From Bifidobacterium thermophilum (GTDB taxonomy: Bacteria > Actinomycetota > Actinomycetes > Actinomycetales > Bifidobacteriaceae), in the NCBI GenBank assembly GCA_000741495.1, contig JGZV01000002.1:186001-250000 (forward strand): a stretch of DNA of 64,000 bases, in the 5' to 3' direction. The notes beneath the pieces are model-generated. The model made no database searches, had not been told where the DNA came from, and saw nothing but the letters and a program-made list of their open reading frames with translations. The position numbers were made by a program, and so were the translations under genes. Of the stretch, positions 19,959 through 39,619 are shown one piece after another (within the stretch, counting starts at the first letter, position 1; every line of letters starts with the position of its first letter).

Positions 19959-22439
19959 TCAATCCTGCTTCGGCTTACCCACCCCCACAATCAGCACTTC
20001 CTTCCTCGCACGTGTCATAGCAACATACAAGAGACTCCGCTCCTGCTTGTACAACTCTTGCAAAGCGACTTCGTCGTTACTGACCTCTGCGCGTAATGGG
20101 CTTGGGGGCAGCACATTGTCGTTTACGTCCACAATGACAACGCAATCGAATTCAAGACCCTTAACCCTATGCATAGTAGCGAGACGAATTCCCCGCATCT
20201 GACGATTATCTTCGTCAGGTCCTAGCTGGTATGCACCGTACGGCAATTGATTATCGATGATGTCACACCATTGTTTTACCAAGAAATGGTTCCTTGCTAC
20301 TACGCATACGTTTCTCGGATCAATGTGACGCATACCATCATTTAGGGCCGATTCCCAAGCATCGTCATCCGGATGGTCACTTTCCAAACCACATCGATCA
20401 ACAATCCATTTCCTGACCGCTTCAATTTCTTCAGCTTGGGAAGCGAAAAGACGCGCTTCCGGGACAGGCCCCATCATCAGGGACCTGCTATCCCCCACCG
20501 GTGCTTCCTCCCCATTCAAGTCATCAAACACGGTCACACGTGAATTCGGGGAGACAGTATCGTCCACAGCCTCGAACACAGAGTCGGCGACGTCCGGCCC
20601 TGACGTGAGGAAAATCCGATCCGCCGCTCCGCGTATCTGTTCTGTAGTTCGGTAATTCACCCGAAGTTTCCGTGCGCGTCCCTGGATTCTGATTCCGCAT
20701 TTGGACAGTACCGCCTTGCGACCGTAGATACGCTGCTGAGCATCTCCCACGATGAAGATGTCATTGTCGCCCTCATCAACCAAAGCACGAATCACTCTAT
20801 ACGCCGGGGTGGAAAAATCCTGCCCTTCGTCGACGATAACATGCGCGTATTTCTTTGGTCCATTCTGCTCGCGCAGCAATGTCTCCGCATAACTCATTGC
20901 CATATCCACGTCGTATGCTTGTTGCGACTGCATCACATGCTGATAAGCTTCTGCGACCCGCCATACTTCGAGCTTTTGCACACGGCTAAGTTTCATCCCC
21001 CGGCCTTTGCGCAACACACGCAAATATTCTGGCACGGATTGAACATGCGCGGGGACGATAACCTGACTCCACTCACTCTTCAGGAATGGAACAGTAAGTT
21101 TCGCATCATGAATTCCGCTTATGCTGATTGCTTTGCTCCACGCGTTGTTCAGGTCATCCCCGTGATCGGCGCTACCGTCAAACCAGATGTTGCCCGAATA
21201 CCCGTGTTCCTTAAGTTGTGTACTGACGAACCGATCGAGGTTGATGACATCAATCTTATTGAATTCTTCAACGCTGCATAGTTGCTTCAGGTTCGACGAA
21301 ATATCAGTGGCAAGATTTCGGGAATACGTGGTGAACAGCACCTTCTGCCTGCTACCTTGCTTAAGCAACGACGCTGCCAGACGACGCGCCCGGTGCATGG
21401 CGACAACGGTTTTTCCCGTACCGGCGCCGCCGAGTAGACGGAAAGGTCCATGATAATCGTGATCAACAAAGTATCGCTGATAGGGGTGCAAGAAAATGCG
21501 CCACTGTTCCAGCGGGGCATCAAGCACGCGCCTGAGGTCCTCCTGTCCTTTGATGACAACAAAGGACTGCTGGGTTGAATAGCTCGTCAATGCCTTGCGG
21601 AAATCGCCTTCCGCACCAGTATCTGGAACCGACACGGAGTGTGATGCTGCTGTCATACTTGACGATGCTTCATTGGCTGTACGAGCCATAGCTAGTACGT
21701 CCGTTTTCGAGCATCCTTCAGCGACAAGTTCAAGATACGTTCTCGCGTCATCCGGTAGACGTCTGCCCCATTCTTTGAATTGTTCCCAACTCGTTCTTGA
21801 CGACATGATATTCACGTATGGATCAGGGACACCTAACTCACGCATCTCCTGAATGGTGAGTTGACGGTACGAATCCGGCAATGGACCAACATGCATCTGC
21901 GCAGGCACGGAAGTGCGTGCTGTATTAGACGGAGTCTTCGAGAACGCACCAGGGCTTCCGCTATTTTCACCTGCACCAGTGGCTCCGCCAACGCTATCCG
22001 CTGGTGAAGGTACCTTGGGTACAGGAGGAATCAAAGTATTCTCTGTCACACCATTATGTTGCTGGTTGAGTGCGGCATCCTGCTCTTCAGCGGTGACCAC
22101 GTCATAAAGCTGAATGGTATTTGTCAGCGTATTGACTTCCAGCCGTTTCTTAGCCGCCCATGCATAGGCGTCATCGTGGTTCCCGATGTAGAGCACGGTA
22201 TAAACGCCGCTTTCTTTCTGATACCCAATAACGCCACGGTATTTCTGGTCGATACGAACCGAATAGAGTTTGTCGTCGACCGTGTTGTTAATCTTTTCCA
22301 GATGGATTCCAGGCGCTTTCGGATTTTCCTGGAATTTCTCTAGAAAATTCTCGAACTGCTTACGTACATTCTTCGGTAATGCCGCATAAGCTCTGAGCAC
22401 TGAATTGTGCATTACGATGATTGGCTGCTGTTGTACCAT
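19959..22439 (-). CDS. RelE/ParE-fold domain fused to UvrD-family helicase
   Basis: An 826-aa protein. Residues 1-105 resemble a RelE/ParE toxin-fold domain (AALPKNVRKQFENFLEKF, YSVRIDQKYRGVIGY, VLYIGNHDDAYAWA). A low-complexity linker of about 60 residues follows. The C-terminal superfamily 1 helicase has Walker A GGAGTGKT (337-344), Walker B VIVDEGQDFS (535-544), motif IV-like VNYRTTEQIR (594-603), motif V MHRVKGLEFDCVVIVDV and motif VI YVAMTRARKE. It starts five bases after the stop of the large helicase gene with AAGGAG upstream, so it is the last gene of the defence operon. Some stand-alone UvrD-like proteins carry this N-terminal fold; whether the RelE part cuts RNA is unknown. Confidence 0.82.
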   Translation of the reverse strand: MVQQQPIIVMHNSVLRAYAALPKNVRKQFENFLEKFQENPKAPGIHLEKINNTVDDKLYSVRIDQKYRGVIGYQKESGVYTVLYIGNHDDAYAWAAKKRLEVNTLTNTIQLYDVVTAEEQDAALNQQHNGVTENTLIPPVPKVPSPADSVGGATGAGENSGSPGAFSKTPSNTARTSVPAQMHVGPLPDSYRQLTIQEMRELGVPDPYVNIMSSRTSWEQFKEWGRRLPDDARTYLELVAEGCSKTDVLAMARTANEASSSMTAASHSVSVPDTGAEGDFRKALTSYSTQQSFVVIKGQEDLRRVLDAPLEQWRIFLHPYQRYFVDHDYHGPFRLLGGAGTGKTVVAMHRARRLAASLLKQGSRQKVLFTTYSRNLATDISSNLKQLCSVEEFNKIDVINLDRFVSTQLKEHGYSGNIWFDGSADHGDDLNNAWSKAISISGIHDAKLTVPFLKSEWSQVIVPAHVQSVPEYLRVLRKGRGMKLSRVQKLEVWRVAEAYQHVMQSQQAYDVDMAMSYAETLLREQNGPKKYAHVIVDEGQDFSTPAYRVIRALVDEGDNDIFIVGDAQQRIYGRKAVLSKCGIRIQGRARKLRVNYRTTEQIRGAADRIFLTSGPDVADSVFEAVDDTVSPNSRVTVFDDLNGEEAPVGDSRSLMMGPVPEARLFASQAEEIEAVRKWIVDRCGLESDHPDDDAWESALNDGMRHIDPRNVCVVARNHFLVKQWCDIIDNQLPYGAYQLGPDEDNRQMRGIRLATMHRVKGLEFDCVVIVDVNDNVLPPSPLRAEVSNDEVALQELYKQERSLLYVAMTRARKEVLIVGVGKPKQD

Positions 22440-22444
22440 TGAAA

Positions 22445-25400
22445 TCAGGACTCCTTCCCATCAGCTCCATCATTGAAGCACTCGGTAATATCATTATCTG
22501 CAGTAGCGTCGGTGATGACGGTCCACCCGCGATTGGTGAATGCCTGAGCGTTCGCATCATCCGCAGCAATATCAATGATGGGGAAGAACACAACTTTAAT
22601 ATCAACCCATGCAAGATCCGCCTGCCCAATGACTTTCCCGTGTTCATCCTGGAGCTCGTACCCCAGCTCTTTCGGTGCGGGTATGGACAGCTTCTCCGCC
22701 TTTTTGATGAACCGCTTGGTTTCATCCGACAGGTACAGGTATGTGGGGTCTGCCATGATGGCGGACCATCCAGTCCCATCCGAATCTTCCTGTACGGCTT
22801 CCGACTGATGGGACATCGCGTTCAAAGGAACGTAGGGATTCTCCCCCTCCATCGCGGTTTCAGCCATGAAGTGGAAATCCGGTGAGAACTGCAGAAGGTT
22901 TACGATGTGCCAATAACCGGACCATTGGGTTTTGTAATCGATTCGATCGTCATCGTCCAACGTATTCAAGGGGTTATACCCCGGTTGGTCGTTGGTTTCG
23001 TCCCTCTGCACGTCATTGAAAAGCAGGCCCACGTGCGCAGTAACGGGTGGTGTATTGCCACCCATCTCCAATCCGACGTATGCATTCAAGCGTTTTCCAT
23101 GCGGATATTGATGCAGAGAGTTCGCCGTAAACTCAGCACGGGGCTCTCCTTGGATTGACTCGATACTATTCAATCTCTCGGCAGTCTCAGGATTATTCCG
23201 ATTGCCGTCTCGGGCATTTAACGCAAAGCTAATCGAGTTGGCTTGATCGGTGAATATTTTCTCGGCATCTTGTCGTGCCAGATAGCATCCGAGCATACCC
23301 ACAGTTCCAACGATACTTGGGTCGAAAACGTCAGAGTGCTTCTGCACTATTGACTTCCGATATGCTTGCGTGGATGGCATCTTGTTCATGTCGAGAAGTG
23401 GGTCAGCCAATTCTTTTTCGGTTTTCCCCTGGACGAAACCAATGACATCATCGTAAGTGAGCGACCATACACGGTACCCCGCACGTCGCAGCGCTTCCCG
23501 TTTGAGGGAATCCTCTTTTACTATCCCCGCGTGGTATTGGATTCCATCGACGAAAATAGCCACTGATTTTCTGTCATCGCTTTCATCTGTGTCAACAGTG
23601 CTGAGACTCAGCACAAAATCCGGCTTGCAAGGCTGCGCCACTCCGGATTGCGGGCCTAAGGTGACCTGTGGCTCAACATCCCATTGATACCCGTTCACAG
23701 TGAGCTTGTATCCCTGCTTTCCATGAACAAATGCCTGGATAAGATCGGCACGGTGTCCTTTCGCTGTGGCGTTTTCCCCAAACGGATGAGCATACAAGCC
23801 ACGCAGTGCTTCAATGAAATGCTGTTCAAGAGTACTATCAAAGAGCGGATTTTCATCGATTTTCGAAATCGTGTCTATCCTACGGCACTTATTGTGAGGA
23901 TCAAGTATCTTGTCGATCATGCCGAGCGCCTTATGGCGTGATATCATTTCCAGAGCACGGCTCTGGCGATAAGCGTACAAACACCGGTAGCAGCCATCAG
24001 CATCAGTATCGGCGCAATCACATGTTAGCATGGCTTCTCTCGCGGCAGCGAGTACGTTCTGCAGCAGGTCGGGATCAGCCATTTGCTTGAGGTATCCGGT
24101 TCCTCCGGGTACGGTGTCATAGAATGCAAGATATGTCTTGCGTAGACCTGATCCGTCTGAGGTTGGTTCATTGCTCAACGTCACGGCGATATGATCGATG
24201 TTGCCGAACACCCGACGCATACCGAGCATTACCGCAGCGGTCAATGATTCCGCTGCACCACTCGAACCGGTACCGCCATCAATCTCAGGAACAAGCATAC
24301 GCAGGATTTCCGATTTGACCTCTCTATACAGGAACAAGCAGGTGTCTTTCTGCTCCGGATTCACCAGCGTCTCTGCATTCCGCTTGCGTTCCGGACAAGA
24401 ATATGCATGTCTGACATGGTTGCCTTCTATCACAGCGCCGCATCTTGCACACACAGTGAATCCCTTGCCATTTGCCGTGGTTCCAGCGATTTCCAACTGC
24501 GACCCATCTCCGGCAGCCTCTCCAAGGTTGATTTCCCGGATTGTTTCCTTTGAGGTGTAATCGAATCCGAAACTGGTCGCTCCAGTAATCTCCCAAGCAC
24601 TGTCAATGTGTTCGCGTGCGATATCGACCAAAGTGTTCTTCACAAAGTGGGCCTTGGGACGGTTATCAGATGTGTCATCCACCTGGCTCTCACTCTCTGT
24701 TTCCTCGGAGATCACTGTGTTGATGCGTACCATCGGCCGTTTTTGTCCGCTATCCGCCCATTGCATTGATCCGCAGGAAGGACAGCTGGCGAGATGCTCC
24801 GAGCTGGACACCGGTTCGGCATGTGAACAGTTCGGGCACAGACGCCACATGACGATGTCGCCACCAGTTCCGCCTTGTGTGCATAGAATCCGGCTAATCT
24901 TGTATTTTCTTCCAGCAGCAAAGAATGTGCTGCCCGGGGCAAGTTCGGTTATCGCGCTGGCTGCGGGACGCACGAAATCCTGTGTGACGGTCTTGCTGCG
25001 GCGTCGCTGGTTCTCGAGTAAGGTTTCTACGCCATTCTTCCCGTTGGTTTGTTCTTTGTCAGGTTTGAGAATCGTGTGGAGCGTTACCCCCGTTTCAGGG
25101 AAGGCATAGTTCGGCAACACACCTTGATCTGACAGATAATTGAAAGTACTGGTACTGCGAATACCGTTGATGATTTGTTGGAGATTGCGTATTTCTTCTT
25201 CGCATTCCAGCTGTTGCTGTGTGAACGAAGAATCCTGCGGCTTGTCTTTCAGCTCTTCAAGCAGACGGTCGGCTTCTCTTCGCTGCTGGGATAAGGCCGT
25301 AAGCGTGTCGTTTGTTCTTCCAAACACGTCAAAGATGCGCCGGCTCATGGTGCTGTCCTCTGAGGTTCCACGAGCAAAAGCTTCGAGCTGATTCCTCGTC

Positions 25401-28400
25401 TCACTGCTAAATCCGAATAACTCTTCGAAACCTGTCACCAACTCGCCAGTGTGCTTGCTGGTCCATTCGAGGAAATTCAACGGGAAATCGTTAGTCTGCT
25501 GTTCAGCAATATTGTTAAGGCACTGCTTCAATTTCAACGGCACGATATCTTGAGGTACCTTACCCGTCGCGAGCATCTCGTGCACCCACTTGCCTAACGC
25601 ATAGGCGATGAGCTGACGTTCCAGCACCGCTGTCGCCTTGAGGAAGATATGCGGTGGGTCGATGGAACCATCCAGCATGTCTTCTGGCCGCTGATAGAAA
25701 TAAACATCATGTTCCTTGGAGTTGGCGACCGCAAGAATGAGCGAATTGCCATCTCGTCGTCCGGCGCGTCCAGCTCTCTGAACATACTGAGCTTGCGAGG
25801 GCGGTATCGAAGAAAGAATGACTGTTGAAAGGTCCCCGATATCAATACCCATCTCGAGGGTAGGGGTGCATGCGAGCACGTTGACTGCCCCCGGCTGGGG
25901 ATGCTCCAGTTTGAACTGTTCTTCGAGCCGGTTCCTGGTGTCTCCGCTCAACAGTCCTGTATGTTCTGCGGCATGGATTCTTTCTGCAGGCTCGTTACGG
26001 TAGAGCTTGCCATAATAACCGAGCTCCAGTGCCGCAGCTTCATCGGTCCCTGCAGTCAAGATTCCCGAACAGGAGCGAGTTCTGCATCGCGCGCCACGCC
26101 ATGCAGGCAGGTTGCGTGTAGCGCACGAATAGCTTCTTCCACATGTATTGCATACCAGCTGGGTGACATTATCATCGACCATGCACCCTGTTTCGAGTAG
26201 CCCGTATACAGTCCGAGGAATCGGACCAGAGGACACTTGTATCGTGCCGACAATACCAGCGCGCACGCATTCTTCAAGCAAAATCCCGAGTAGTTCGCAG
26301 TGAATATCAGCGCTTTCGAAAGACTTCTCGCTCAGATATCTGTGGACAAGTTGACGATAAGGTCCGGAATCGAGGGTGTCGAATGCTTTCTTACGGACCG
26401 ACGGTTTGTCTGACAGGAAGTGCGGTACCTCATCCACATACACACCGGGCATCCACTTTTCATTCTTATTGGACAGGAAATATGTGTTTCCATCTTGTTG
26501 GAGGAACCGGTCGTATGTTACATCAAGGAACGCGCCTCTAGTACGCAGCAAGTTTAGAAATGCAGCAGTCAGGTGAAGCCAATCGTCATGGTCAATCGCC
26601 TCGCGCCTTAGACCGATTTCGTTGTGGCAGCGTTCCATCGTTACCACAGAAACTCGTTCCATCAACGGCTGATCAAACGCTAACGCTGCGCAACCTGATT
26701 TTTCCAGAGTTCGCCCGATGCGGCAGCGCATACCAAGCTCCAGCAAAGATTCCAACCGAATCCTACGCCCAATCCAGTCCAGCAGCAGTTTACGTTCTGG
26801 GCCAGCCGGGTTGTTCCGCAACACAGCATCATACTCGCGCATCCATGTCATATTTGGGGCGATGAATCGCACGATATATTCGGCTTCATTATCATACCGA
26901 CGGTGATAGTAATCGTTTTGATGGTTAAGAAAGTCAGCAAGACTTGACCCAGCCATACTGTTCTTTTCCAGATAGTCAACCGCAGAATTACGCAATGCGA
27001 AGCGCCAAGTCCGTGAGTTGAACACACTTGCGCGGTACGAGGCGTCCTGTACACTGTCGGAGAATACGATTGCCTTGTCGTCATCATTGAATGTATCTCC
27101 AGACAGCTCAGTGAGCATGACGCTGATCTGTGTGGTAGCCCGCACACCGACCATGGCGATGTCCTGTTCGCTGCCGCAGAACGGGCAACGATAATGTTTT
27201 CTTCCCTCAACAAGGCTCATTGTGCGCGCGATCATGGTGATACGCGGGGTACCACACGCCGAGCACTCACATTCTGACGGTTCGAATGACGCCACGGTTT
27301 CGGCTTTCATGCAGGAGTTGCAGAACCATACCGCCGCACAGCCATCGTTTTCCGGCGTAAATCCCATTTCGCACGGCTGCAACGTAATCAAGTCGTTCTT
27401 GGCCTTGTAGTCGAAAAACGTACTGTAAAAGGACTCCATATCACGAATGCCAATCCAGCCGTCTTTCCCGAGGAGACCAATCCAGGCAGTGCCGCCGCAA
27501 TCGCGGCAGTTGATGACCGGCATTCGGGTTCGAAGATCTTCCTTCGTCAGTTCGATAGCCGGGCGGTAATCGACTTCGCCATCCAGACCGGTGACGTTGG
27601 CCACTACCCTGCCTAATTCCTTGACCCATAGCTGGACTTGTACGTTGAGGAATGGACGTGGATTCTGCGCGTTTCCTGCCCGCACATAGGAAACCAACGC
27701 GACGAGTGCATCTACGCAGGCTTTTTGTTGTTCACGGTTCAGGCTATTGAAGCGAAGATGTCGAATGGCAAGCTCGTCGAGTAATGACCCATCGACTCGA
27801 CGTGGATGTTGTGATATCAGGTCGGTCAATGTGCACAGGAACCGGGAACGCTTGAGTTGACGCCCAAGTTCAATCCGTACAGCAGAATCTTCAATCGACT
27901 GTTGCTGCCGCCATTCTTCCAGCCAAGCTTGGGCTGCGCATGAAAGATATGCCTCGGGATCCGTATCGTGCTCAAGATTGATCAACTTTTCTGCCTCGAT
28001 GGCTGACGGAATGGTGTTGTCAGCATCTTCGTTATCGAAGAACTCGCTGGCGTGAAGTCGATCCTCGGTGATCACCGATTCAGGCGTGAATGTGGTATTG
28101 AAGATATCCTGTGCATATTTGCAGACTGATTCCACGGTTTCGTCTGTGCCCATGGTGGCGGACGTACCGATGCAGCATATTTCGTCGCTGCTGGTATGGA
28201 GCCTGTCTGTCAGCCTTCGCAACAGACATGCAAGATCAGTACCTTGTGCGCCATCGAAGGTGTGGAATTCGTCGACGACGAAATACTTGAGGGTTGTCTC
28301 GTCGTTATCGTCCCAGATTCGCGTGTCTTTTGGCCGTACCAGCAGATAGTCGAGCATCTTGTAATTGGTCAGCAGGATGTCTGGCGGGGTTTTCAGCAGC

Positions 28401-28969
28401 TCGTCATGGTCCGTGACGATATTGGTGGCGGTCATCACGTGGTTGCCTTTGTTTGCGCCGCCGAGGCTCTGTTCGCCGACGTACATGCCAGCGGTCACAT
28501 TGTTATTGAGTTCTGGACTGTCATGGATGAGCGCTGCGATACGTTTCGCCTGATCTATTGCCAAGGCGTTCATCGGGTAGACGAGAATCGCTTTGATGCC
28601 TTTTCTGCCGAGCCTGCGCTGCTGATAGCAGTAGTCGAGGATCGGATACAGGAAGCATTCGGTCTTGCCTGATCCGGTGCCGGTTGCCACGAGTGTGGAC
28701 TCTCCGGAAGTAATCCGTTGGAACGCCCGCATCTGGTGGGCGTACGGCGGGAACCCCGGATGCAAGCTTGTAAAGGGGAATTTCGCGTGTCTGCCCGCAG
28801 TGCGGAACGGCAGTTTAATCGACACAAATGGATTCTGGACGAGTGCGCCTGTCTGTTGGGCGAGCCGCTTGATTGAACCACGGAACGGCCTGTTCGTCAT
28901 GGGGAACGTGGTTTCCACATAATCCGCCAGACCAGAGGCGATATGCTGTGCGAGTACCACTGGAATCAT
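22445..28969 (-). CDS. Giant DEAD/DEAH helicase with DUF1998 and nuclease-like domain (DrmA/B- or DruE-like)
   Basis: 2174 aa from ATG 28969, which overlaps the methyltransferase stop (ATGA) and has GGAGG eight bases upstream; the longer reading from 29005 is rejected. Helicase motifs: ATGTGSGKTE (95-104), VVDEFHTFDGAQG (231-243), IGTSATMG, then TPTLEMGIDIGDLS and YVQRAGRAGRRDGN. Several Cys pairs (INCRDCGG, WFCNSCMK, YRCPFCGS) interrupt the helicase. A DUF1998 module follows near 1500-1690 with YDTVPGGTGYL and DGCYRCLYAYR. Near 1786-1830 KPDFVL, VAIFVDGIQYHA and LRRAGYRVWSLTYDD resemble a Vsr/DUF559-type PD-(D/E)XK fold. The last 320 residues are unassigned. Helicase plus DUF1998 is what DrmA and DrmB provide separately, and is also the build of Druantia DruE. 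Confidence 0.82.
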   Translation of the reverse strand: MIPVVLAQHIASGLADYVETTFPMTNRPFRGSIKRLAQQTGALVQNPFVSIKLPFRTAGRHAKFPFTSLHPGFPPYAHQMRAFQRITSGESTLVATGTGSGKTECFLYPILDYCYQQRRLGRKGIKAILVYPMNALAIDQAKRIAALIHDSPELNNNVTAGMYVGEQSLGGANKGNHVMTATNIVTDHDELLKTPPDILLTNYKMLDYLLVRPKDTRIWDDNDETTLKYFVVDEFHTFDGAQGTDLACLLRRLTDRLHTSSDEICCIGTSATMGTDETVESVCKYAQDIFNTTFTPESVITEDRLHASEFFDNEDADNTIPSAIEAEKLINLEHDTDPEAYLSCAAQAWLEEWRQQQSIEDSAVRIELGRQLKRSRFLCTLTDLISQHPRRVDGSLLDELAIRHLRFNSLNREQQKACVDALVALVSYVRAGNAQNPRPFLNVQVQLWVKELGRVVANVTGLDGEVDYRPAIELTKEDLRTRMPVINCRDCGGTAWIGLLGKDGWIGIRDMESFYSTFFDYKAKNDLITLQPCEMGFTPENDGCAAVWFCNSCMKAETVASFEPSECECSACGTPRITMIARTMSLVEGRKHYRCPFCGSEQDIAMVGVRATTQISVMLTELSGDTFNDDDKAIVFSDSVQDASYRASVFNSRTWRFALRNSAVDYLEKNSMAGSSLADFLNHQNDYYHRRYDNEAEYIVRFIAPNMTWMREYDAVLRNNPAGPERKLLLDWIGRRIRLESLLELGMRCRIGRTLEKSGCAALAFDQPLMERVSVVTMERCHNEIGLRREAIDHDDWLHLTAAFLNLLRTRGAFLDVTYDRFLQQDGNTYFLSNKNEKWMPGVYVDEVPHFLSDKPSVRKKAFDTLDSGPYRQLVHRYLSEKSFESADIHCELLGILLEECVRAGIVGTIQVSSGPIPRTVYGLLETGCMVDDNVTQLVCNTCGRSYSCATRNLPAWRGARCRTRSCSGILTAGTDEAAALELGYYGKLYRNEPAERIHAAEHTGLLSGDTRNRLEEQFKLEHPQPGAVNVLACTPTLEMGIDIGDLSTVILSSIPPSQAQYVQRAGRAGRRDGNSLILAVANSKEHDVYFYQRPEDMLDGSIDPPHIFLKATAVLERQLIAYALGKWVHEMLATGKVPQDIVPLKLKQCLNNIAEQQTNDFPLNFLEWTSKHTGELVTGFEELFGFSSETRNQLEAFARGTSEDSTMSRRIFDVFGRTNDTLTALSQQRREADRLLEELKDKPQDSSFTQQQLECEEEIRNLQQIINGIRSTSTFNYLSDQGVLPNYAFPETGVTLHTILKPDKEQTNGKNGVETLLENQRRRSKTVTQDFVRPAASAITELAPGSTFFAAGRKYKISRILCTQGGTGGDIVMWRLCPNCSHAEPVSSSEHLASCPSCGSMQWADSGQKRPMVRINTVISEETESESQVDDTSDNRPKAHFVKNTLVDIAREHIDSAWEITGATSFGFDYTSKETIREINLGEAAGDGSQLEIAGTTANGKGFTVCARCGAVIEGNHVRHAYSCPERKRNAETLVNPEQKDTCLFLYREVKSEILRMLVPEIDGGTGSSGAAESLTAAVMLGMRRVFGNIDHIAVTLSNEPTSDGSGLRKTYLAFYDTVPGGTGYLKQMADPDLLQNVLAAAREAMLTCDCADTDADGCYRCLYAYRQSRALEMISRHKALGMIDKILDPHNKCRRIDTISKIDENPLFDSTLEQHFIEALRGLYAHPFGENATAKGHRADLIQAFVHGKQGYKLTVNGYQWDVEPQVTLGPQSGVAQPCKPDFVLSLSTVDTDESDDRKSVAIFVDGIQYHAGIVKEDSLKREALRRAGYRVWSLTYDDVIGFVQGKTEKELADPLLDMNKMPSTQAYRKSIVQKHSDVFDPSIVGTVGMLGCYLARQDAEKIFTDQANSISFALNARDGNRNNPETAERLNSIESIQGEPRAEFTANSLHQYPHGKRLNAYVGLEMGGNTPPVTAHVGLLFNDVQRDETNDQPGYNPLNTLDDDDRIDYKTQWSGYWHIVNLLQFSPDFHFMAETAMEGENPYVPLNAMSHQSEAVQEDSDGTGWSAIMADPTYLYLSDETKRFIKKAEKLSIPAPKELGYELQDEHGKVIGQADLAWVDIKVVFFPIIDIAADDANAQAFTNRGWTVITDATADNDITECFNDGADGKES

Positions 28970-31900
28970 CGATTGCCTCCATATTTGTGTTCGAAAAACG
29001 CCCATGCTGTTTTGTAGTCTTCGATTCGATCACAGACGTCGAACGGTGCGACATAGTCGATAGAACGGTCACGTGGGCCGCCAGGCTGGGTATCGTCGCT
29101 GATTATGCGGGTGAACACCGTTCCCGCAGGAGCATTGCGCCAACCATTGAATTCAGCACGGCCGGCAGTCAGTCTGCCATAGCTCTTCTTCACTGAAAAG
29201 GCGATACGGCCGTTGGCGTCGTACCACGTATCTGCTTCATACTGGTTGAGCACCATAAAGGTAAGCTTGTAAATGCTGATGAGCTCGTCCAGCGAGATGC
29301 CAAGAGCCATTGAAGCCAGAACATCGAGTTCCACCAGGGCCTGCCGGCGTGCATAATCCGACCGCAATGGCGTATGCCAGTCCCAATCCTCTGCCAATGA
29401 AGTAAAGGCGTTCGCCGGCAAGCGGGAATCCTGCTTGGACCATTCCATGGCTCGGTAGGAGTCTTCCCAGCAGCTCTTCCACAGTTCTGCATATGGTCTG
29501 GTCAGACAGTTCAGCAACAAACCACGAAGCCGGATCTCAGTATTCAAACTGCTGTCCGGAACCGGCAACGTAGACAAGACAGAACGGTTGACATGAGATT
29601 TCCCTGCCGCTCTGACGAAAAAGTCATATGGTAACGATGCTTCGAGTCCACTCATCAGTGCAAGCAACGCGTAACGCTCTGGGTGCACACCATAACCTGT
29701 TATGGTGTTCACCCAGGCTGCGCCTGGGTGAACACAGGACGCTTGCAGCGTCCTTTCGCTTGTCACCCCAACATACTCGCGGTTGCATAGTCTGTAGACA
29801 GCATCGAATCGTGTGCCGTCATTCATTTTTTGGATACGTTTACTGTATTCGGCGTCGCTGCAAGCTTGTGAATATTTGGCCCGGGGAAGGTAGTTCTCTG
29901 GAATCTCGGTGAGATCAATCGCATCATAGTCGCTATTGCTCTTATACGTTCTTCGCGTGGTCTGCAATAGCGGGTTGCCAACACCGATGAACGGGCTGGA
30001 ATAAATCAATGTCTTTGTGGTATCCGGGAAATGGATGTCATCATCGATGGTCCCATCCTTACGGGAGTTGGTCTCATTCCACATGCTGGAGTACGTGATT
30101 TCATCATCATAATCGCGTAGCGTGTGCGGCGCTTCCGCCATTTTTTCCAAGGTGGAAAGCAACTCTGTGGCATGGATACCAATCATCGGCGTCTGTTCCC
30201 AGTCTTCGGCCTTACCCGAACCGACGAGTCTGGAGAACAGCTCAAGTTCCCGTTTGGTGATATGGATAATCCTGTCCTTATGACCTCTCGTGTCCCATTC
30301 CTTGCCGTTCTTGACTCCAGGGACTTCTCCGGAACCGTCCGACTTATAGCATGCGTCGACGGTTTTGGGGTCATACAACCCCCAGATGGAATCGAAACAC
30401 ACTTCCGACGCATCTCTCTTCGCCGATGGATTCCTGTAGACATTCAAACCGAAACTCGTCTCATGATGGACACCGGCAAACAGCTTCTTTTCATTGCTGA
30501 ATTGGAAATGATATCGCAGACGCCGATACATCTGTTCACGTAAAACACCCGCACGGGTGTCACCATAGATCTCATCAGGATGAACGAATGCGCTTACCCC
30601 GGTGTCCATACGCGTATAGTCCCATGCATTGGGTAAGAAGCAGCGGAACAAATTAGTGCGTCCTTTAAGCAGTTGGTAATTGCAAATGGCTCCAAAATAA
30701 GACAGTGAGCCTGCGATATTTGCATATTCGCCGATATACACAGCTCTTGTACGCTCATCCTGTAAAATTTCAAGTATCCGTTTGCTCAGTGAGGACGCAC
30801 TCAGCTTGTGTATTGCAAGATATGGATTTACATCCGAGACGACGTCGGCTTCTTTCCATTGAACGTTCACCCACGGTGGATTCCCAATCATCAAATCGAA
30901 CCCACCTTCGTTGAATACATCAGCGAATTCCAGCTCCCAGTGGAAGAAGTGCTGCTCTTCGGCAATCTGTTTGACCAAACGCAGACGTTTAGCAGTGTCG
31001 TTGTCACCGCTACACAGCTCCTGAAGATCCACCTCATGCTCAAACATGTAGTCACGCTCATCTTCGCTGTTCAAGCTGTCTTCAAACGTAGGCTGATTAT
31101 CTTCGCGAACCAGTTCGAATCCTTCCGGTATCTTTCCCGTCAGAATCAGCGCCATGTCAAGTAAATAATCACGCCTCGAGGGCAGAAGCTGAGCTGCATC
31201 AATCGGCCAAAACCACAGGGAACACCAATAATCCATCGCGAGTTTGAGCCGTGCATATTCGCTGGCATTCTTCGCATGGTCGGAGAAGTACTCCAAGCGA
31301 AGCATCTCGTCCTTTTCACGAATTGAAAGATGATTACGGCGATCGATGTCCTCGGTCATTCCCTCGAAGTCGCTCTGCCCGCGCTCCTGTTGCTCTATGA
31401 GTGTATCGGTATGCTTGCTGTCATGGAGGAACTGATCATATCCGTAGATGCTCAACCTGTCCTCATCACGTGTTTCATACTCGAGCTGTCTGCGGGCCTT
31501 GACTTGTCCTTTCCACAGTGCATCGATGCTCTCGGAGAGCTGCTTCATGGCACCGATCTCTGTCTTGGAATACGGCCGATCAGTGAAGTCTTTCTTCCAG
31601 TCAGCGATGACGCTGAGGTTCGTTGACTCGATTGTCTCGATGGTTTTGTCATTGTAAGCGCACATGCCCGGATCGCCGGTAAGAAAGTGGTATATTCTGC
31701 GGGTGGATAACGCCGACTTCTTGAAACCAATCCGCTTGGGACTGGTGGTATTCCATCTGAGATTCTTGGCCGTGCTCGCAAGCTCGGACTCAAGATATCC
31801 AGCACGCCGTGCTCCAACCAGCGAGTTTCCGCATACCAATTGAGTTCCGAACCATGGCACGAACGAACCTTCGCAGATGGTGTTGAGCCACAGCGATACC

Positions 31901-33837
31901 TCGCCAAGTTCCACTGCCACCGGGTTCAAGTCGATGCCATAAATGCAGCGGTCGGCGATGAACATCTTGACCTTTTGCAATTCAGCTTGTCGTCGCTCGG
32001 CTGGAATCGCCGCCTGTGTGCCTTTCTGTGCAACCAACTCATGTTCCCTACGCGACAGATACATACTCGCCAGTTGGTTGATTACCTCATTGAGGAATGT
32101 GGCGGAGCCCATCGCCGGTTCGCAGATTTTCAACGTAAGAATATCCGTTGCCTGACGGATGCGCGGTTCGAGCTCCTTGATCGCATATTTGACCAGGCAC
32201 TGCGCAAGACTATCAGGCGTGTAGTACGACGCAGAGGTCTCCCGCTCGCGTCCGGCAAGACGATAGATGAAGGTGCCCGGCTCATAGCTACGTAACTCGC
32301 CTTCATGAGGATCACCGGCCGGATAGCGTACGCGCTCATTCTCCGCATAGTCGGAAAGCTGCTGCTCGGTGACGAAATAACCGACGTTGAGAGGATCATA
32401 GTGGTCCTTTTCACGCTTCACCTCGTAGAGTTTCTCTTTGGCGATGAACCCACGGTACGACAGCAGCGCCTCGTAGACCGCGCCCATCTGGCTGATGCCG
32501 AGTGCAGCATATGAGATGCGTTGCCTTCTGCGCGCCCCCTTGGTGGCTCCGCTCACGCTCATCAAATCGATGACCTTGAGCATTTGGCTGTCACGCAACT
32601 TCGCGTTTTCAAGAAGTCCTGTACGTTCCGGGTCGAAGATATGGGCTTTCAATGGTGGAATCAGGAAGAGCGCATCACTGATTTCCTCGCTGTTGACCCT
32701 CTTGTAATCATTCTCCGTTGTCGGGTAGCCATTGAATACCAGACGGTCGAGTTGTCGCAAGGTATCCGCCAGATATGTGGTGTCACCTGCCTCATCCATA
32801 CGACCACGCATCTGTTCTGCGATATCCCGCAGGCTATCCAACGAATAACCTGTACGGTAAATCTCCGATCTCATAGGTGCATAGCCTAAAGAGGGCTTGG
32901 CTTCAATGAACAACAGGAACAACAGGCGATACATGTAACGCAACGCTTGCAGTGTGAGTTCGCCAGCATCGATCTCCTCGATGGATCTTTGCTTATTATG
33001 TACCCAGTCATTAATGACTTCGTTGCCGAGGATCTCCACGCATTCACGCAAAGCAGAACGTAAGCCATCCGATACTTCGACAGCATTTTTCGCAGATTGT
33101 TCATCGAACGCATCGAGCACGCTATCGCCATTGTCCGGACAAAGGCTGTCATGGTCAAGAAGCACAGCCATCGCGGAGTAGACATGATCTTGATGTCGGC
33201 TGAAAATCGTGTCAAGATCGAATATCACGCATCTTTTGTCGCTCCACTTGCGACGGTCGATCAGCACAATCTGGTGCAGCCCCATGACCAGCACCCAACG
33301 GGTAGGCTGATCAAAATCCGACAACAGCATACGAACGTATTCTTCACAGGAAGGTCCGTTACCGGTATCTTCCTCAGCAGGACTCTCCAGCACTCCTGTT
33401 GAGGTATCACGCGTATAGCTCGCAATGACTTGTACAATAGGCACACCCAATGTGTCATTGACTTGGTAGTGTACAGGGATATTCGTTCCTGCCGACGCAT
33501 CTACAAGGCCGGTTACCGGCGCTACGTTTGCCTTGGCAGCATACCCGAGTGAGTCCAGCATGCCGTCAATGAATTCCCGCACACTCTCCGTCCCAAACAG
33601 GTCAGTGTCATTGTTGTTGATAATCTGCACATACGATTGCCGCATCGCCTTCAATTTGAAAACAGGACGATCCTGCGCAGCAAGTTCACGCCATGCCTTC
33701 GACGTCTCAGCAACACCCTGTGGGAAATACTCCTTCATGTAGTAGGGCGTGTAGAAATCGTTTACGGATTCAATGCCCGGAAATGTCTCGTTCAGTTCCT
33801 TCACCATTGCTATTCCCAGTTCTCTCCGACGCCTCAT
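28966..33837 (-). CDS. N6-adenine DNA methyltransferase, DrmMI/Eco57I-like
   Basis: 1623 aa. SAM-binding motif I is EPAMGSATFLNEVINQLA (near residue 576), followed by YGIDLNPVAVELGEVSLWLN, and the catalytic motif IV is IGNPPWVN (near 985), the NPPW/Y form of gamma-class N6-adenine methyltransferases. Long N-terminal and C-terminal regions probably serve target recognition. No separate restriction domain is obvious. ATG 33837 overlaps the SNF2 gene stop (ATGA); a second Met at 33807 (MVKELNETF) is possible and no strong ribosome binding site decides. Sitting between a SNF2 helicase and a DUF1998 helicase, it occupies the position of DISARM DrmMI. It should methylate host DNA to mark self. Confidence 0.85.
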   Translation of the reverse strand: MRRRRELGIAMVKELNETFPGIESVNDFYTPYYMKEYFPQGVAETSKAWRELAAQDRPVFKLKAMRQSYVQIINNNDTDLFGTESVREFIDGMLDSLGYAAKANVAPVTGLVDASAGTNIPVHYQVNDTLGVPIVQVIASYTRDTSTGVLESPAEEDTGNGPSCEEYVRMLLSDFDQPTRWVLVMGLHQIVLIDRRKWSDKRCVIFDLDTIFSRHQDHVYSAMAVLLDHDSLCPDNGDSVLDAFDEQSAKNAVEVSDGLRSALRECVEILGNEVINDWVHNKQRSIEEIDAGELTLQALRYMYRLLFLLFIEAKPSLGYAPMRSEIYRTGYSLDSLRDIAEQMRGRMDEAGDTTYLADTLRQLDRLVFNGYPTTENDYKRVNSEEISDALFLIPPLKAHIFDPERTGLLENAKLRDSQMLKVIDLMSVSGATKGARRRQRISYAALGISQMGAVYEALLSYRGFIAKEKLYEVKREKDHYDPLNVGYFVTEQQLSDYAENERVRYPAGDPHEGELRSYEPGTFIYRLAGRERETSASYYTPDSLAQCLVKYAIKELEPRIRQATDILTLKICEPAMGSATFLNEVINQLASMYLSRREHELVAQKGTQAAIPAERRQAELQKVKMFIADRCIYGIDLNPVAVELGEVSLWLNTICEGSFVPWFGTQLVCGNSLVGARRAGYLESELASTAKNLRWNTTSPKRIGFKKSALSTRRIYHFLTGDPGMCAYNDKTIETIESTNLSVIADWKKDFTDRPYSKTEIGAMKQLSESIDALWKGQVKARRQLEYETRDEDRLSIYGYDQFLHDSKHTDTLIEQQERGQSDFEGMTEDIDRRNHLSIREKDEMLRLEYFSDHAKNASEYARLKLAMDYWCSLWFWPIDAAQLLPSRRDYLLDMALILTGKIPEGFELVREDNQPTFEDSLNSEDERDYMFEHEVDLQELCSGDNDTAKRLRLVKQIAEEQHFFHWELEFADVFNEGGFDLMIGNPPWVNVQWKEADVVSDVNPYLAIHKLSASSLSKRILEILQDERTRAVYIGEYANIAGSLSYFGAICNYQLLKGRTNLFRCFLPNAWDYTRMDTGVSAFVHPDEIYGDTRAGVLREQMYRRLRYHFQFSNEKKLFAGVHHETSFGLNVYRNPSAKRDASEVCFDSIWGLYDPKTVDACYKSDGSGEVPGVKNGKEWDTRGHKDRIIHITKRELELFSRLVGSGKAEDWEQTPMIGIHATELLSTLEKMAEAPHTLRDYDDEITYSSMWNETNSRKDGTIDDDIHFPDTTKTLIYSSPFIGVGNPLLQTTRRTYKSNSDYDAIDLTEIPENYLPRAKYSQACSDAEYSKRIQKMNDGTRFDAVYRLCNREYVGVTSERTLQASCVHPGAAWVNTITGYGVHPERYALLALMSGLEASLPYDFFVRAAGKSHVNRSVLSTLPVPDSSLNTEIRLRGLLLNCLTRPYAELWKSCWEDSYRAMEWSKQDSRLPANAFTSLAEDWDWHTPLRSDYARRQALVELDVLASMALGISLDELISIYKLTFMVLNQYEADTWYDANGRIAFSVKKSYGRLTAGRAEFNGWRNAPAGTVFTRIISDDTQPGGPRDRSIDYVAPFDVCDRIEDYKTAWAFFEHKYGGNR

Positions 33838-36800
33838 TCACTTGCGACAAACGCCGCAGCGACACGAATGATAGGCTGTTGTTCAGATGCGTCAAGCGAC
33901 ATCTCGACCCAGTTAGCGTACTCATTGCAGATACGCATGGTATCCGCTTCTGCTGCAGAAGTATCGCTACGATTCCTTGATGCAACGACACGGTTGCGTT
34001 CTACAGACCACTGCTGTATTCGAACGAGTTGAGATTCTATGTTGCGATCTGCCCGCTCCTGATACTTATTTTGGTACTGTTCGAGTATTTTTCTACCCTG
34101 ATGGACCGCGCCGGCAAGTAATTCCTCAGCCAATTCTGTCTGGCTTTTGCTCGGCGAGTTCTCTTCGCGGTTGATGTAACGCCGTTCGATGGTCCCTGGG
34201 ATCACGCTGCCGCGATAACCGGTGATACGCCAGACCTCATCGAGGGAAAGACTCTCCTGATATTCGGTACCGAGATATCGCAGTCCAAACCACTGATCGA
34301 TGACAGGTGACGCATGCTTGTTAGCAAGCATGCCGTTCATCAATATGATGGTTTCACCATCTTGCATCTTCCCATTACCGACACCGATGATCGGGGCCTC
34401 ATCGCGCTTGTACAGCAAGGATGTAGACTTCAAACCCACCCATTCAGTGATGGGGTTCAGAGCCCACAGGTATTGCGTTGTGCTCCATTGCTCGTCATTC
34501 AATGTTGCAACCAAGCTATTCGCGCGATTTTCACAGTATTCACGGTCAGCGCTCCACTCGGCGGTATCATGACTGAGAATGCGGGCATCCGGGACGCGTC
34601 TGCGCAGCCATGCACGCAACGGGCTGTCTTTCTTGAATTTCACAGTTAGGCGTTGTTCGGAAGCGCTTTCATTCATGCGCTCTATTCCTGCTGACTGCTT
34701 GAATTCAGGGCACTGTAACCCTTGTTCGACAAAGGAATAGTCGGACATCAACGTTTTGGATTCGCTTATTCCGTCACCGGTAGCCATCTTTCGGAATATG
34801 CTATCCGGATCCGAATTGTCTTCACTATCAGCGCTGTTGCTATTGGATTCTTGCGAGTTCCCCGATTGTTCGAGGTTGAAGAATTTCATCGGATCGAACG
34901 CGTCTACATCTTCTTCCACTGTCTTCCGGGAGTCATCACTTGCAGGCTGCTCAGTCGAATCGATATCTGTCGGTCGAATGCTCAGTCGTTGTGAGAAGTG
35001 TTCCGCTGATTCGCCCGACTCGATGGCTTCGCGAGTGACCGCTTCCTCTGCCTCGATGTCAAACTTGCCCATCAGCAGTGCCGGGTCTCCGATATCTTTT
35101 CGGGCCTGATCCTCTTTCTCTTGAAGAATCTCAAGAATCCTGGCGTCGCCTTTTATCTTCTCATTGCGTGAATCGATGGTCATGAATCTGATGTCCGGCT
35201 GCTTACGCTGACCATAGCGGTCAATGCGCCCATTGCGCTGCTGGAACACCATCAGGGACCACGGCGTATCGAAATGAATCAGACGATGGCTCAAATAATG
35301 CAGGTTCAAACCTTCAGAAGCGACATCTGAAGCGACAAGAATTCTGATTGGAGATGTCCGAGTGCCAAATTGCTCAACGACTTGCTGCTGTTCCAAATCG
35401 GACATGCTACCATCCATCGATGCGATAGCGTCGGTGGAGAGACCCAGATCCTTGCGCAAGTGCTGTACCAGATAATGTTCGGTCTCGATTCTCTCCGTGA
35501 AAATCACAACACGGTCATCCGGCGCATCGCAATCCCAAGCGTAAGAATCGCTACGCAACAATTGCAGCAACCTCTGGTATCTGGAAAAATCAGTTGGGCT
35601 TATCTTCTCGAGCGCCGTTTTGAGCCCTTCCAACGCTCCGGTGTCTGCTTGACGAACGTTTTCATCACCTTTCGAGAGTTTCACAAGCCGCTCGTCAATC
35701 GTTTTGATGCATGCCACAGGCGATGAGAAAAGACTCTTCTCAAGCAGAGTCTTGAACAACCCAGCATTCGTTCCGCGACGGTGAACATCCATCACCAAAT
35801 GCATGCTCGTCAGACAGTCAAATGCGACCTCCTCGGCAGCGGTAGCGATGCATTTCTCCTGAGTAACCTTACGATCGGGGAAATTTCCCGACACGTCCGA
35901 AAAAACATCCTGTTTGAAACGTCTCACATACAGATGCTCGATATCCGCTTTACTGTAGTTTTCCGGATCCGGCAGCGTAGTCGGGTCAAGCATATTCATC
36001 AACGAAGCGAAACTTTTCGCGCGACCATCGTGTGGGGTTGCCGATAGCATTATCAAGGTATCGGATCGCGTGGCTAGACGTTTGGCGAGTTTCGCCCGCT
36101 GTGCACGACGCCCATCAATCGCACGGTCAGCGACATTCTGTGCTTCATCAATCACGATGATATCCCAATAGGAGGCATCCAACGCAGCACCATACTGGAT
36201 GTCCCGTTTCAGAGTATCAATCGACACAATCACCTTGTCGTAATACGAGAACGGATTAGCGTTTGCCGGAATCTCCGAACGAATCTGCTGGATACGTGAT
36301 GAATCCAGACTGACAAGAGGGATGGTAAATCTGTTCCACATCTCCTTTTGGAATTGTGCCATCATGCTCTTTGCGGTAACGACCAGAATCCGTCGTCCCT
36401 TACGCCGCGCAATGAGCTCTGACATCAAAATACCTGCTTCGAGCGTCTTGCCCAGGCCGACTGCATCGGCTATCAGAATACGTTGACGGGGCTGGGCAAG
36501 TGCTTTCAAAGCAGGAACCAACTGATAAGGCAACGAGTCCATGGCGGCCTTGTCTCCTACATGAATCTTGTCATCTGTGGGCGCGCTCGAACGTAACAGG
36601 CTCTCAATGAATAAATGGGAACGTGAAGCATTCGGCGATGTATCCGGCACGAACATTGTGTTGACCGGATCAACAGGTGTTATGGTATCCAAATCATCCA
36701 GAAACACCGCCGGCATATCACGTACCAGCGGTGAGATGCCCGTGCACGACACAGCTTGGTGACCAAGCATGTTTCTAACAACTTTGGTGACAATCCATTC

Positions 36801-36869
36801 TTGGTCACGGATCAGTACCCTCATGCCGGGAGAAAGCGCATTCCGTTGTTCCTGCACATCGTCTCTCAT
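33834..36869 (-). CDS. SNF2-family helicase, DrmD-like
   Basis: A 1011-aa superfamily 2 protein. Motif I is ADAVGLGKTLEAGILMSEL (near 140), motif II IIVIDEAQN (near 241), motif III MLSATPHDGR, then the C-terminal helicase half with VVIFTERIETEHYLVQHL, ASDVASEGLNLHYLSHRL and QQRNGRIDRYGQRKQ (near 548). An acidic Ser/Asp-rich linker and a C-terminal region of about 280 residues follow. This is the layout of DISARM DrmD. ATG 36869 (MRDDVQEQRNALSPG) is chosen because upstream codons overlap the preceding gene and look non-native; ATG 36893 is an alternative. First gene of a four-gene cluster with ATGA overlaps. It would translocate on DNA to couple recognition with exclusion of phage DNA. Confidence 0.83.
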   Translation of the reverse strand: MRDDVQEQRNALSPGMRVLIRDQEWIVTKVVRNMLGHQAVSCTGISPLVRDMPAVFLDDLDTITPVDPVNTMFVPDTSPNASRSHLFIESLLRSSAPTDDKIHVGDKAAMDSLPYQLVPALKALAQPRQRILIADAVGLGKTLEAGILMSELIARRKGRRILVVTAKSMMAQFQKEMWNRFTIPLVSLDSSRIQQIRSEIPANANPFSYYDKVIVSIDTLKRDIQYGAALDASYWDIIVIDEAQNVADRAIDGRRAQRAKLAKRLATRSDTLIMLSATPHDGRAKSFASLMNMLDPTTLPDPENYSKADIEHLYVRRFKQDVFSDVSGNFPDRKVTQEKCIATAAEEVAFDCLTSMHLVMDVHRRGTNAGLFKTLLEKSLFSSPVACIKTIDERLVKLSKGDENVRQADTGALEGLKTALEKISPTDFSRYQRLLQLLRSDSYAWDCDAPDDRVVIFTERIETEHYLVQHLRKDLGLSTDAIASMDGSMSDLEQQQVVEQFGTRTSPIRILVASDVASEGLNLHYLSHRLIHFDTPWSLMVFQQRNGRIDRYGQRKQPDIRFMTIDSRNEKIKGDARILEILQEKEDQARKDIGDPALLMGKFDIEAEEAVTREAIESGESAEHFSQRLSIRPTDIDSTEQPASDDSRKTVEEDVDAFDPMKFFNLEQSGNSQESNSNSADSEDNSDPDSIFRKMATGDGISESKTLMSDYSFVEQGLQCPEFKQSAGIERMNESASEQRLTVKFKKDSPLRAWLRRRVPDARILSHDTAEWSADREYCENRANSLVATLNDEQWSTTQYLWALNPITEWVGLKSTSLLYKRDEAPIIGVGNGKMQDGETIILMNGMLANKHASPVIDQWFGLRYLGTEYQESLSLDEVWRITGYRGSVIPGTIERRYINREENSPSKSQTELAEELLAGAVHQGRKILEQYQNKYQERADRNIESQLVRIQQWSVERNRVVASRNRSDTSAAEADTMRICNEYANWVEMSLDASEQQPIIRVAAAFVASE

Positions 36870-37018: not shown

Positions 37019-39592
37019 TCACCGCACCGACGAACGCTCCTTCAAAATCGGCACAAACACATCCAAGAATTTCCGACTCCATGTCGCCATGAACTCGGCC
37101 ATGCGAGGCCAATCCGCCTCGTTCGCGAGCGCAACACCTTCCAGCGAAGTGGAAATCAGGGATGCTTTGGAGGTCTTGCTGCCGCCGAGTCTGTTCCATG
37201 TGAGTTGAGTTCTTTCCAGCGCATCCTCTATTTCCTTGCTGCGTGATTGCAGGAAGTCAAACATCCGGCGGTTTGCTTCTGCATCTTGCTTTCCGAGGTA
37301 AAGTTCAACCCGCGCCTCATCTTGATTGGCAACGCAGTTCACGGCGAATCCGCTGATGCCGAATGTGCCAGCGATCGATCTCCAATCGCTTGGTTTGCGG
37401 TTGTCGAAGCAACCGTTCTCGCGATTCGCTTCTTGAACCACGGGAAGCGCATACTCCCAGTACGCTCTGTTCAATTCACGTCTGGTGCAATCGGTAAGCG
37501 TGTCATCATCCTGGTCATGAAGGTAGAACACGAGGTCTGTCGGGTCTTCGTGGAACAGCGAGAACAGCTTGCGCAGAATCGAGATCTTGGCCGCCGTGTT
37601 ATTGTGCTTTTCCACGTAGATGCCGTCATCAACCTTCAGCGGGGTACGGAATCCGCTTGGATTACCGCTGAAATACCCGCTGATATCGGTTTCTCCGTTC
37701 TGATGGTATACAAGGCCCAACAGCACAGAATTGTCTTTGTCATGCAGGTATTTCACCACATGCTCGAACATGTCCGCCCAGCTCGAGACCGGTGTTTCCT
37801 TGCCTTGGTAGGCGTACTTGACGATGTCCCGGCCGGTCAGATCGAAATCCTCATCGTCCAGCGTGCAGGAGTCATACTCTTTCTCAACCGGTTTGAACGC
37901 TGTAAACGGCATGGGCCAGATTCCACTTACTGCACGGGAAACCAGCTCATCGTTGCGCTCCTGCATATCCTCGGCACCCCACCGGTCCTTCGTCGCAATC
38001 CGCTGGTTCATCCGCAAACCGCTGTACTTGTAGCCTCTCTCGGCGTCCCTCTTCTCACGGAAGGTGGCGTTGCTCATGTTGGAATTGTAGGCGGTCAACG
38101 TCAGGTTGCCGAGCCTGTGCAACCACACGTCATGGATCTCCTCCGCGTCCGCCCCAAGCTCTTCAACCCATGCAGGAGTCAGATGCTGCGGCATGATGTG
38201 CTCAATGGAATACGTGCCGTTGTCCAACAACGTGTACACGTCCTTGGTCTCCAGCGTGCCATAGTTCTCAAAACGCTCGAACAAGTATGATCTGTACTTC
38301 CCGCGCATCTGATACACGGCCTTGTTTGCAAGCGCCCGTTCGAACTCTTCATCGTCCGGGAAGCGGCTACTTTCCTTCTTCGAAAGCAGCACATACTTGA
38401 ACTTGTCCAGATAGTTGTCAGCTGTGCCGTCGAAGCGCAGCACCTCGCGGTTGAGCGTGAGGAACACCTTGTTCAACGAGTTTGTCGGCACGTCACAGAT
38501 ATTGCGGCGAAACAGGTAGTTCTCGACAATCAGCACAACCTGTGCAAGATCATCACTGGATATCTTACCGTCCTGGTTGAGCCGGAAGACCTCCATGAGG
38601 AACGGTTCCGCCACAGTAACGTCGAGCCGACGCAACCGGTACAAGGAATCATCGAGTACCCGGTTGTCCAGACCGCTCTTGCCGTCGTACAACTTGCGGT
38701 AGATACGCGCATATCCGAGCATATCCTCCAACACATTGATCAAAGGCGCATTGCGGGACGCGACGAATTCCTTGAAGGCACGGTACACATTCTTGAGGGT
38801 TGGCGTCACCTGCTGCTTGATGCTCAGATAATCGCGGACGAAAGCGCTGACATCCCCGCCTGTACACTCTTCGATTTTCGTCCAGTATTTCGCATAGACA
38901 TCATCTTGCTGTTTCGGATCGAGACCCATGAGAACGTAGTTGCGGATCTTATCGCCCTCGGTCAAGGCGAGACCCGTGGAATTCAGGCTTTCAAAAATCA
39001 GTTGCGCATTGTCATCCCCATCAAGAGTGATGCTGATGACTTGTAGCTTTTTCACAGCGTCGAACAGCTGGTCTGCGGTTATTGTCCCTTGAGCGATGCG
39101 ATCGCAGAAGTACTGGTAGTTGATGGTCAGATTGGAAGCGAGATCAAACTCCTCCCGATCGCCTGCCACGAGCCTGTGCAAAGTATCACGGTCAGCCTTG
39201 ACAGGACGAAGCTTAATCTTGTCATCTCCGCTGCTCCACTCGTCCACGATGTACCGCTTCATAATCTGATCTGCAACGGTTCCATCAGCCGACTTCGCTT
39301 GTCCCGACCGAACCATGTTGGAAATCGCAAGCAGCAACAACGTAACCGTAGTCAAACGCTGTTGCCCATCAATGATGTGATATTCAATCTTACTGCCGTC
39401 CGGCACAATCTGGGAAACGATGCTGCCGAAGAAATGATGGCTTCTTCCGTCGCGAATGACTTTCTCGAGATCCGCATACAGCTGACGGCAATTGTCAACC
39501 TTCCAGTCGTACTTCCTCTGGTACACCGGAATGACATACCGCTTGTCAGCGCCCTCCATCAGCCCAAGCAGCTGAGTCTCAGAACCCTTCAT
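37019..39592 (-). CDS. GmrSD-type DUF262/DUF1524/DUF4268 protein
   Basis: 857 aa from ATG 39592, with GGAGG five bases upstream; the in-frame extension to 39658 runs through a palindrome and is rejected. Domain order: DUF262 with IPVYQRKYDW (about 20-29) and IIDGQQRLTTVTL (about 74-86), the ParB-like DGQQR nucleotide-binding motif; DUF1524 with SIEHIMPQHL near 463 and HRLGNLTLTAYNSNMSN, the HNH-type nuclease motif; and a C-terminal DUF4268-like region (ARVELYLGKQDAEANRRMF, TQLTWNRLGGSKTSKASL). Such proteins are type IV restriction enzymes that cut modified phage DNA. It lies 150 bp upstream of the DrmD-like gene on the same strand and may belong to the same system or be an independent layer against modified phages. 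Confidence 0.85.
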   Translation of the reverse strand: MKGSETQLLGLMEGADKRYVIPVYQRKYDWKVDNCRQLYADLEKVIRDGRSHHFFGSIVSQIVPDGSKIEYHIIDGQQRLTTVTLLLLAISNMVRSGQAKSADGTVADQIMKRYIVDEWSSGDDKIKLRPVKADRDTLHRLVAGDREEFDLASNLTINYQYFCDRIAQGTITADQLFDAVKKLQVISITLDGDDNAQLIFESLNSTGLALTEGDKIRNYVLMGLDPKQQDDVYAKYWTKIEECTGGDVSAFVRDYLSIKQQVTPTLKNVYRAFKEFVASRNAPLINVLEDMLGYARIYRKLYDGKSGLDNRVLDDSLYRLRRLDVTVAEPFLMEVFRLNQDGKISSDDLAQVVLIVENYLFRRNICDVPTNSLNKVFLTLNREVLRFDGTADNYLDKFKYVLLSKKESSRFPDDEEFERALANKAVYQMRGKYRSYLFERFENYGTLETKDVYTLLDNGTYSIEHIMPQHLTPAWVEELGADAEEIHDVWLHRLGNLTLTAYNSNMSNATFREKRDAERGYKYSGLRMNQRIATKDRWGAEDMQERNDELVSRAVSGIWPMPFTAFKPVEKEYDSCTLDDEDFDLTGRDIVKYAYQGKETPVSSWADMFEHVVKYLHDKDNSVLLGLVYHQNGETDISGYFSGNPSGFRTPLKVDDGIYVEKHNNTAAKISILRKLFSLFHEDPTDLVFYLHDQDDDTLTDCTRRELNRAYWEYALPVVQEANRENGCFDNRKPSDWRSIAGTFGISGFAVNCVANQDEARVELYLGKQDAEANRRMFDFLQSRSKEIEDALERTQLTWNRLGGSKTSKASLISTSLEGVALANEADWPRMAEFMATWSRKFLDVFVPILKERSSVR

Positions 39593-39619
39593 ATGGCCTC
39601 CACTCCAATGCCCCGGGTA

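Follow-up and report, generated by a model that had tools for sequence, protein, structure and literature searches.

ARMADA type II was defined by Bell et al. (2025 preprint; PMC12458937) as a set of four genes in a strict order. ArmA is a BrxHII/RapA helicase, ArmB a PglX-like methyltransferase, ArmC a YprA helicase with a C-terminal Vsr nuclease, and ArmD a RelE domain fused to a GajB-like helicase (PMC12458937). The system was studied in E. coli NCTC 12900 and ATCC 8739 (PMC12458937). In E. coli it provides non-abortive antiphage protection for which all four genes are required, and defence was abolished or lowered by mutations of ArmA K136 and D236, ArmB N971 and G605, ArmC K110 and D234, and ArmD K266 and D454 (PMC12458937). 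Its authors dubbed ARMADA a 'missing link' between DISARM and Druantia (PMC12458937).

Gene content and identity of the operon

The locus lies in a 64-kb stretch of Bifidobacterium thermophilum DNA (hereafter the window), where four co-directional genes on the minus strand, running from 36869 to 19959, form an ARMADA-type operon with junctions of ATGA, ATGA and 5 bp:

armA, 33834..36869, minus strand: 1011 aa; BrxHII/RapA (SNF2-type) helicase, DrmD-like
armB, 28966..33837, minus strand: 1623 aa; PglX/YeeA-like adenine DNA methyltransferase; ATGA overlap with armA
armC, 22445..28969, minus strand: 2174 aa; YprA-family helicase with DUF1998/MZB; ATGA overlap with armB
armD, 19959..22439, minus strand: 826 aa; RelE-like domain fused to a GajB/UvrD helicase; 5 bp after armC

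None of the four genes contains an internal stop. The longest ORF of armA extends to 37199, and homology begins near 36869; the mechanical ORF of armC has 2186 aa, compared to the 2174 aa adopted here.

By gene order, homology, catalytic residues and clade, these genes very probably make up a complete ARMADA type II antiphage operon. The order of BrxHII/RapA helicase, PglX-like methyltransferase, YprA helicase and GajB-like helicase matches the definition of the system. It is identical to that in E. coli ATCC 8739 (locus L011), to which ArmA, ArmB, ArmC and ArmD show global identities of 43, 41, 36 and 38%, respectively. In pairwise alignments with this strain, 8/8 of the residues mutated in PMC12458937 are conserved in the window proteins. 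Furthermore, in a tree of 21 sequences, built without DrmA and Druantia I/II sequences, the window's ArmC groups with E. coli ArmC in the type II clade (support 100/100), separately from ARMADA I and Druantia III. Pseudanabaena, Tsukamurella and an E. coli plasmid have the same gene order, as do most of the 80 best-match loci with sufficient flanks. Since it recurs across many phyla, it is not a matter of chance.

The best PADLOC profiles were DrmD for ArmA (328 bits), a type IIG methyltransferase for ArmB (734 bits; DrmMI 207 bits), DruE for ArmC (372 bits) and GajB for ArmD (123 bits). Pfam recognised SNF2 and Helicase_C in ArmA, an Eco57I methylase in ArmB, DEAD, Helicase_C and MZB (DUF1998) in ArmC, and UvrD in ArmD. 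The parts resemble pieces of several systems because the matches listed from the 2023 PADLOC library include no ARMADA model. What this library splits into DISARM, Druantia, IIG and Gabija pieces would thus be one named system, ARMADA II.

An earlier note on this DNA gave the same coordinates, lengths and junctions, and its gene identities (a DrmD-like SNF2 helicase, a DrmMI-like methyltransferase, a helicase-DUF1998 protein and a RelE-UvrD protein) are borne out by PADLOC, Pfam and the RelE fold. It had also seen correctly that the DrmA and DrmB functions are fused in one chain, since PADLOC and Pfam find a single helicase-DUF1998 gene, and that drmC is absent: scans of neighbouring genes with Pfam and PADLOC revealed neither a separate DrmB nor a DrmC homologue. 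A RelE-UvrD gene indeed closes the operon (ArmD; Pfam, Foldseek), and the DrmD, DrmMI and DruE profile matches agree with the proposed kinship to both DISARM and Druantia. The note's main proposal, a new DISARM-Druantia hybrid, was right in kind as a link between the two systems, but this link had already been described as ARMADA II (PMC12458937). We rejected the reading as a new hybrid, since the published definition of ARMADA II comprises these four genes, and because of the residue match and the tree. Homology, gene order, catalytic residues and the tree place the set inside this named subtype, an outcome that the note itself had set against its proposal.

Conserved residues, predicted domains and a possible mechanism

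ArmA is 52% identical to E. coli ArmA over 623 aa, with Walker A at K141 and Walker B at D241. ArmB is 36% identical to its E. coli counterpart over 1720 columns, and has the SAM motif at G577 and NPPW at N986. Across 40 sequences, the N-terminal 300 aa of ArmB contain no conserved (D/E)xK. We therefore did not read ArmB as a type IIG enzyme with restriction activity, even though this result does not prove inactivity.

Two further domains were located in the large helicase and the closing gene:

ArmC C-terminal Vsr-like EDxHD nuclease (predicted), aa 1690-1905, 23255..23902, minus strand: AF2 model, VIA, residue conservation
ArmD N-terminal RelE/YoeB-fold domain, aa 1-115, 22095..22439, minus strand: AF2 model, Foldseek, residue conservation

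In ArmC, Walker A is at K102 and Walker B at D233. The C-terminal segment (216 residues) was modelled by AF2 with a pLDDT of 84.6. Foldseek gave no nuclease match to it at E<=0.001. The best structural neighbours of the model in VIA were the catalytic domain of I-Bth0305I (Z 8.6), which we take to be a member of the EDxHD/Vsr-like group, and the putative endonuclease 3hrl (Z 8.4). Residues E1715, D1784, D1808, H1813 and D1820 are invariant in 45 sequences. On the basis of the top VIA match, these invariant EDxHD residues and the published prediction, ArmC carries a fused, predicted Vsr-like EDxHD nuclease.

ArmD shares 35% identity with E. coli ArmD over 647 aa and has Walker A at K343 and Walker B at D537. 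Its first 115 residues adopt a RelE/YoeB fold in the AF2 model (pLDDT 91.6; Foldseek E 5e-6 to RelE, TM(target) about 0.7). E48, R68 and H88 are invariant in 35 sequences and, judged by their spacing, presumably resemble the YoeB triad. The models and invariant residues of ArmC and ArmD lend support to the suggestion of the earlier note that this gene set uses 'a different effector', namely a Vsr-like nuclease on ArmC plus the RelE-UvrD protein ArmD.

For ARMADA II we propose the following mechanism, and we consider the chances about even that it is correct. Defence would be direct rather than via cell suicide. ArmB may methylate adenines in host DNA, which would mark it as self or serve as a gate, while ArmA could act as a dsDNA translocase that surveys DNA together with ArmB. 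ArmC would load onto unprotected, ssDNA-containing phage intermediates and then translocate, after which its C-terminal Vsr-like nuclease would cut the loaded phage DNA. This loading and cutting step is drawn by analogy with DruE, a relative of ArmC that cleaves long DNA and prefers ssDNA-containing substrates (PMC13192584). Possibly, ArmD unwinds or processes the cleavage product, and its RelE-fold domain may contribute an RNase-like activity. The ATPase of DrmAB is lower on methylated DNA (PMC9142583). A role of methylation in ARMADA is as yet a proposal, and it counts against this role that the E. coli ArmB SAM-motif mutant G605A retained partial activity (PMC12458937).

Genomic setting and the armB-armC junction

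The operon sits in an island of low GC content whose chromosomal site is variable. GC content is about 50% over roughly 17.8-41.6 kb (38% near the left edge), compared to about 62% in the flanks. These flanks align to the close relatives G021, G027 and G114 (loci L115, which is G021:C42, L117, L119 and L120). Between them, G021 has other cargo, namely a GmrSD gene and an RM-like set made up of a helicase, an Eco57I methylase and UvrD. A GmrSD gene also adjoins the left flank in G027, and a decayed fragment of GmrSD adjoins the right flank in G114; in these two relatives, the contigs break inside the region. The site is a variable island because relatives hold other cargo between the same flanks. 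The 64-kb window contains no tRNA, and no integrase was recognised among the island genes scanned.

The island also holds two genes upstream of armA:

GmrSD (DUF262) and DUF4268 protein, 37019..39595 (or to 39658), minus strand: Pfam GmrSD_N/GmrSD_C/DUF4268; PADLOC Orf5, 543 bits
Schlafen/AlbA_2 protein, upstream of GmrSD, 39765..40937, minus strand: Pfam SLFN_AlbA_2; PADLOC PDC-S50, 373 bits

The GmrSD-DUF4268 gene is separated from armA by a 149-bp gap, and is a neighbour rather than a core ARMADA gene. Three other genes of the window have features of their own. A 427-aa protein at the left island edge (16416-17699) has a possible restriction-nuclease-like DAKYYKGG motif, and a 392-aa AT-rich gene (18465-19643) has CxxC-type motifs; neither has a Pfam or PADLOC match. 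An Abi_2 (abortive infection) gene lies at 57699-58619, within a second GC dip.

ArmB was found in only 3 other genomes of the 101 sampled from the genus, and an ArmC search of 189 family genomes returned the same three carriers. In G059, frameshifts disrupt both ArmB and ArmC. We considered whether its split ArmC might be a DrmA/DrmB-like gene pair, but rejected this, since the overlap looks like a frameshift and the ArmB of that locus is interrupted as well. G059 also has a divergent set opposite ARMADA II (L012:1780-11678, L013; G059:C11), with a second YprA-type helicase (1745 aa, MZB). On the Tsukamurella plasmid NZ_LR134452.1 (L010:1-20383), ARMADA II is immediately preceded, in the same direction, by genes for a DrmB-profile protein (222 bits) and a helicase, and a second UvrD helicase follows it; this arrangement reads as a DISARM-like core joined to ARMADA.

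The junctions of the operon were surveyed in the best 80 matches (L021-L100), with counts taken from loci with measurable gaps. Gaps of >300 bp occurred at armB-armC in 20/41 loci, compared to 0/30 at armA-armB and 3/57 at armC-armD, two of the latter barely exceeding this length. The excess at armB-armC has Fisher p values of 1.5e-6 and 9e-7, without correction for common descent of the loci or for the restriction to the 80 best matches. The guests at this junction include GmrSD, AlbA_2, OLD-like plus UvrD, SIR2, AbiEii, a SMODS-patatin pair, a dynamin-like pair and a kinase (examples with insertions are L022, L066, L087, L090 and L097). The genus relative G081 likewise has an Abi_2 gene between armB and armC, on the opposite strand (L019:9827-10573; G081:C2:45826-46575). 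In the window, armB and armC overlap by ATGA, without a guest.

A tentative explanation, to which we give rather less than an even chance, is that guest defence genes (CBASS-like, Gabija-like, AbiE, SIR2, GmrSD, Schlafen/AlbA_2, dynamin-like and others) dock specifically at armB-armC. ARMADA II might then be a modular chassis that expresses or cooperates with exchangeable systems. The main text of PMC12458937 makes no mention of hotspots, nesting, GmrSD or DUF262, and a literature search on nested defence genes gave nothing directly relevant. If upheld, the junction hotspot would offer a direct genomic handle on nesting and cooperation of defence systems; it is the one lead worth following from a locus that otherwise belongs to a known system.

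Alternatively, the upstream AlbA_2 and GmrSD genes might form, together with ARMADA II, an extended functional unit of six genes. Both are on the operon strand, GmrSD is only the 149-bp gap away from armA, and in other phyla GmrSD (L085, L095) and AlbA_2 (L022, L090) occur as armB-armC guests. However, their adjacency to ARMADA is not conserved within the genus, and neither gene was found upstream of armA in G059, G076 and G081. Moreover, relatives of GmrSD occur in 15/101 genus genomes, among which, besides that of the window, only G059 also has ARMADA, on a separate contig, and clustering of defence genes is common anyway. A six-gene unit is therefore improbable, and we retain the four-gene ARMADA II operon.

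Comparison with known defence systems

The operon shares a DrmD-like helicase and a DrmMI-like methyltransferase with class 1 DISARM, and one could regard it as a variant of that system in which drmA and drmB were fused and drmC was lost. The DrmD and DrmMI profile matches speak for this, as does the separate DrmB that adjoins ARMADA II in Tsukamurella. Yet, class 1 DISARM has DrmA and DrmB as separate genes and a PLD nuclease, DrmC, whereas the window has one fused helicase-DUF1998 gene. No PLD gene was present among the operon and neighbouring genes scanned, drmC was not found, and a RelE-UvrD gene ends the operon. The large helicase matches DruE far better than DrmA (53 bits), and all four genes match ARMADA II. 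In addition, the DISARM helicase is in a different clade from that of ARMADA in the published tree (PMC12458937). We consider this alternative extremely unlikely.

A Druantia variant with extra genes has equally little to commend it: DruE is the top PADLOC profile for the large helicase, but ArmC groups with ARMADA II at 100/100, apart from Druantia III, the type that represents Druantia in the tree, and the remaining three genes are homologues of ArmA, ArmB and ArmD. Druantia III has in common with the operon a large YprA helicase-nuclease (DruE) with DUF1998. It differs in its nuclease, which is PLD rather than Vsr-like, in its DruH partner and in its separate clade; no Druantia partner genes (e.g., type III druH) were found in the window operon by PADLOC, Pfam or alignment. 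Similarly, the UvrD helicase of ArmD resembles GajB of Gabija, but the operon lacks a GajA partner and ArmD has an N-terminal RelE fusion.

ARMADA type II is therefore our preferred assignment. ARMADA I has ArmA-like, ArmB-like and YprA helicase genes as well. In contrast to the window operon, however, it is defined without a RelE-UvrD gene, its YprA gene is usually first, and it forms a separate clade. ARMADA II of E. coli agrees with the window in its four genes and their order, the RelE domain on ArmD, the predicted Vsr-like nuclease on ArmC, the eight residues and the ArmC clade. It differs in host and in sequence (about 36-43% global identity), and its neighbours are Druantia III and Zorya II, whereas those in the window are GmrSD and AlbA_2. 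The window thus adds a copy of ARMADA II with close relatives for comparison.
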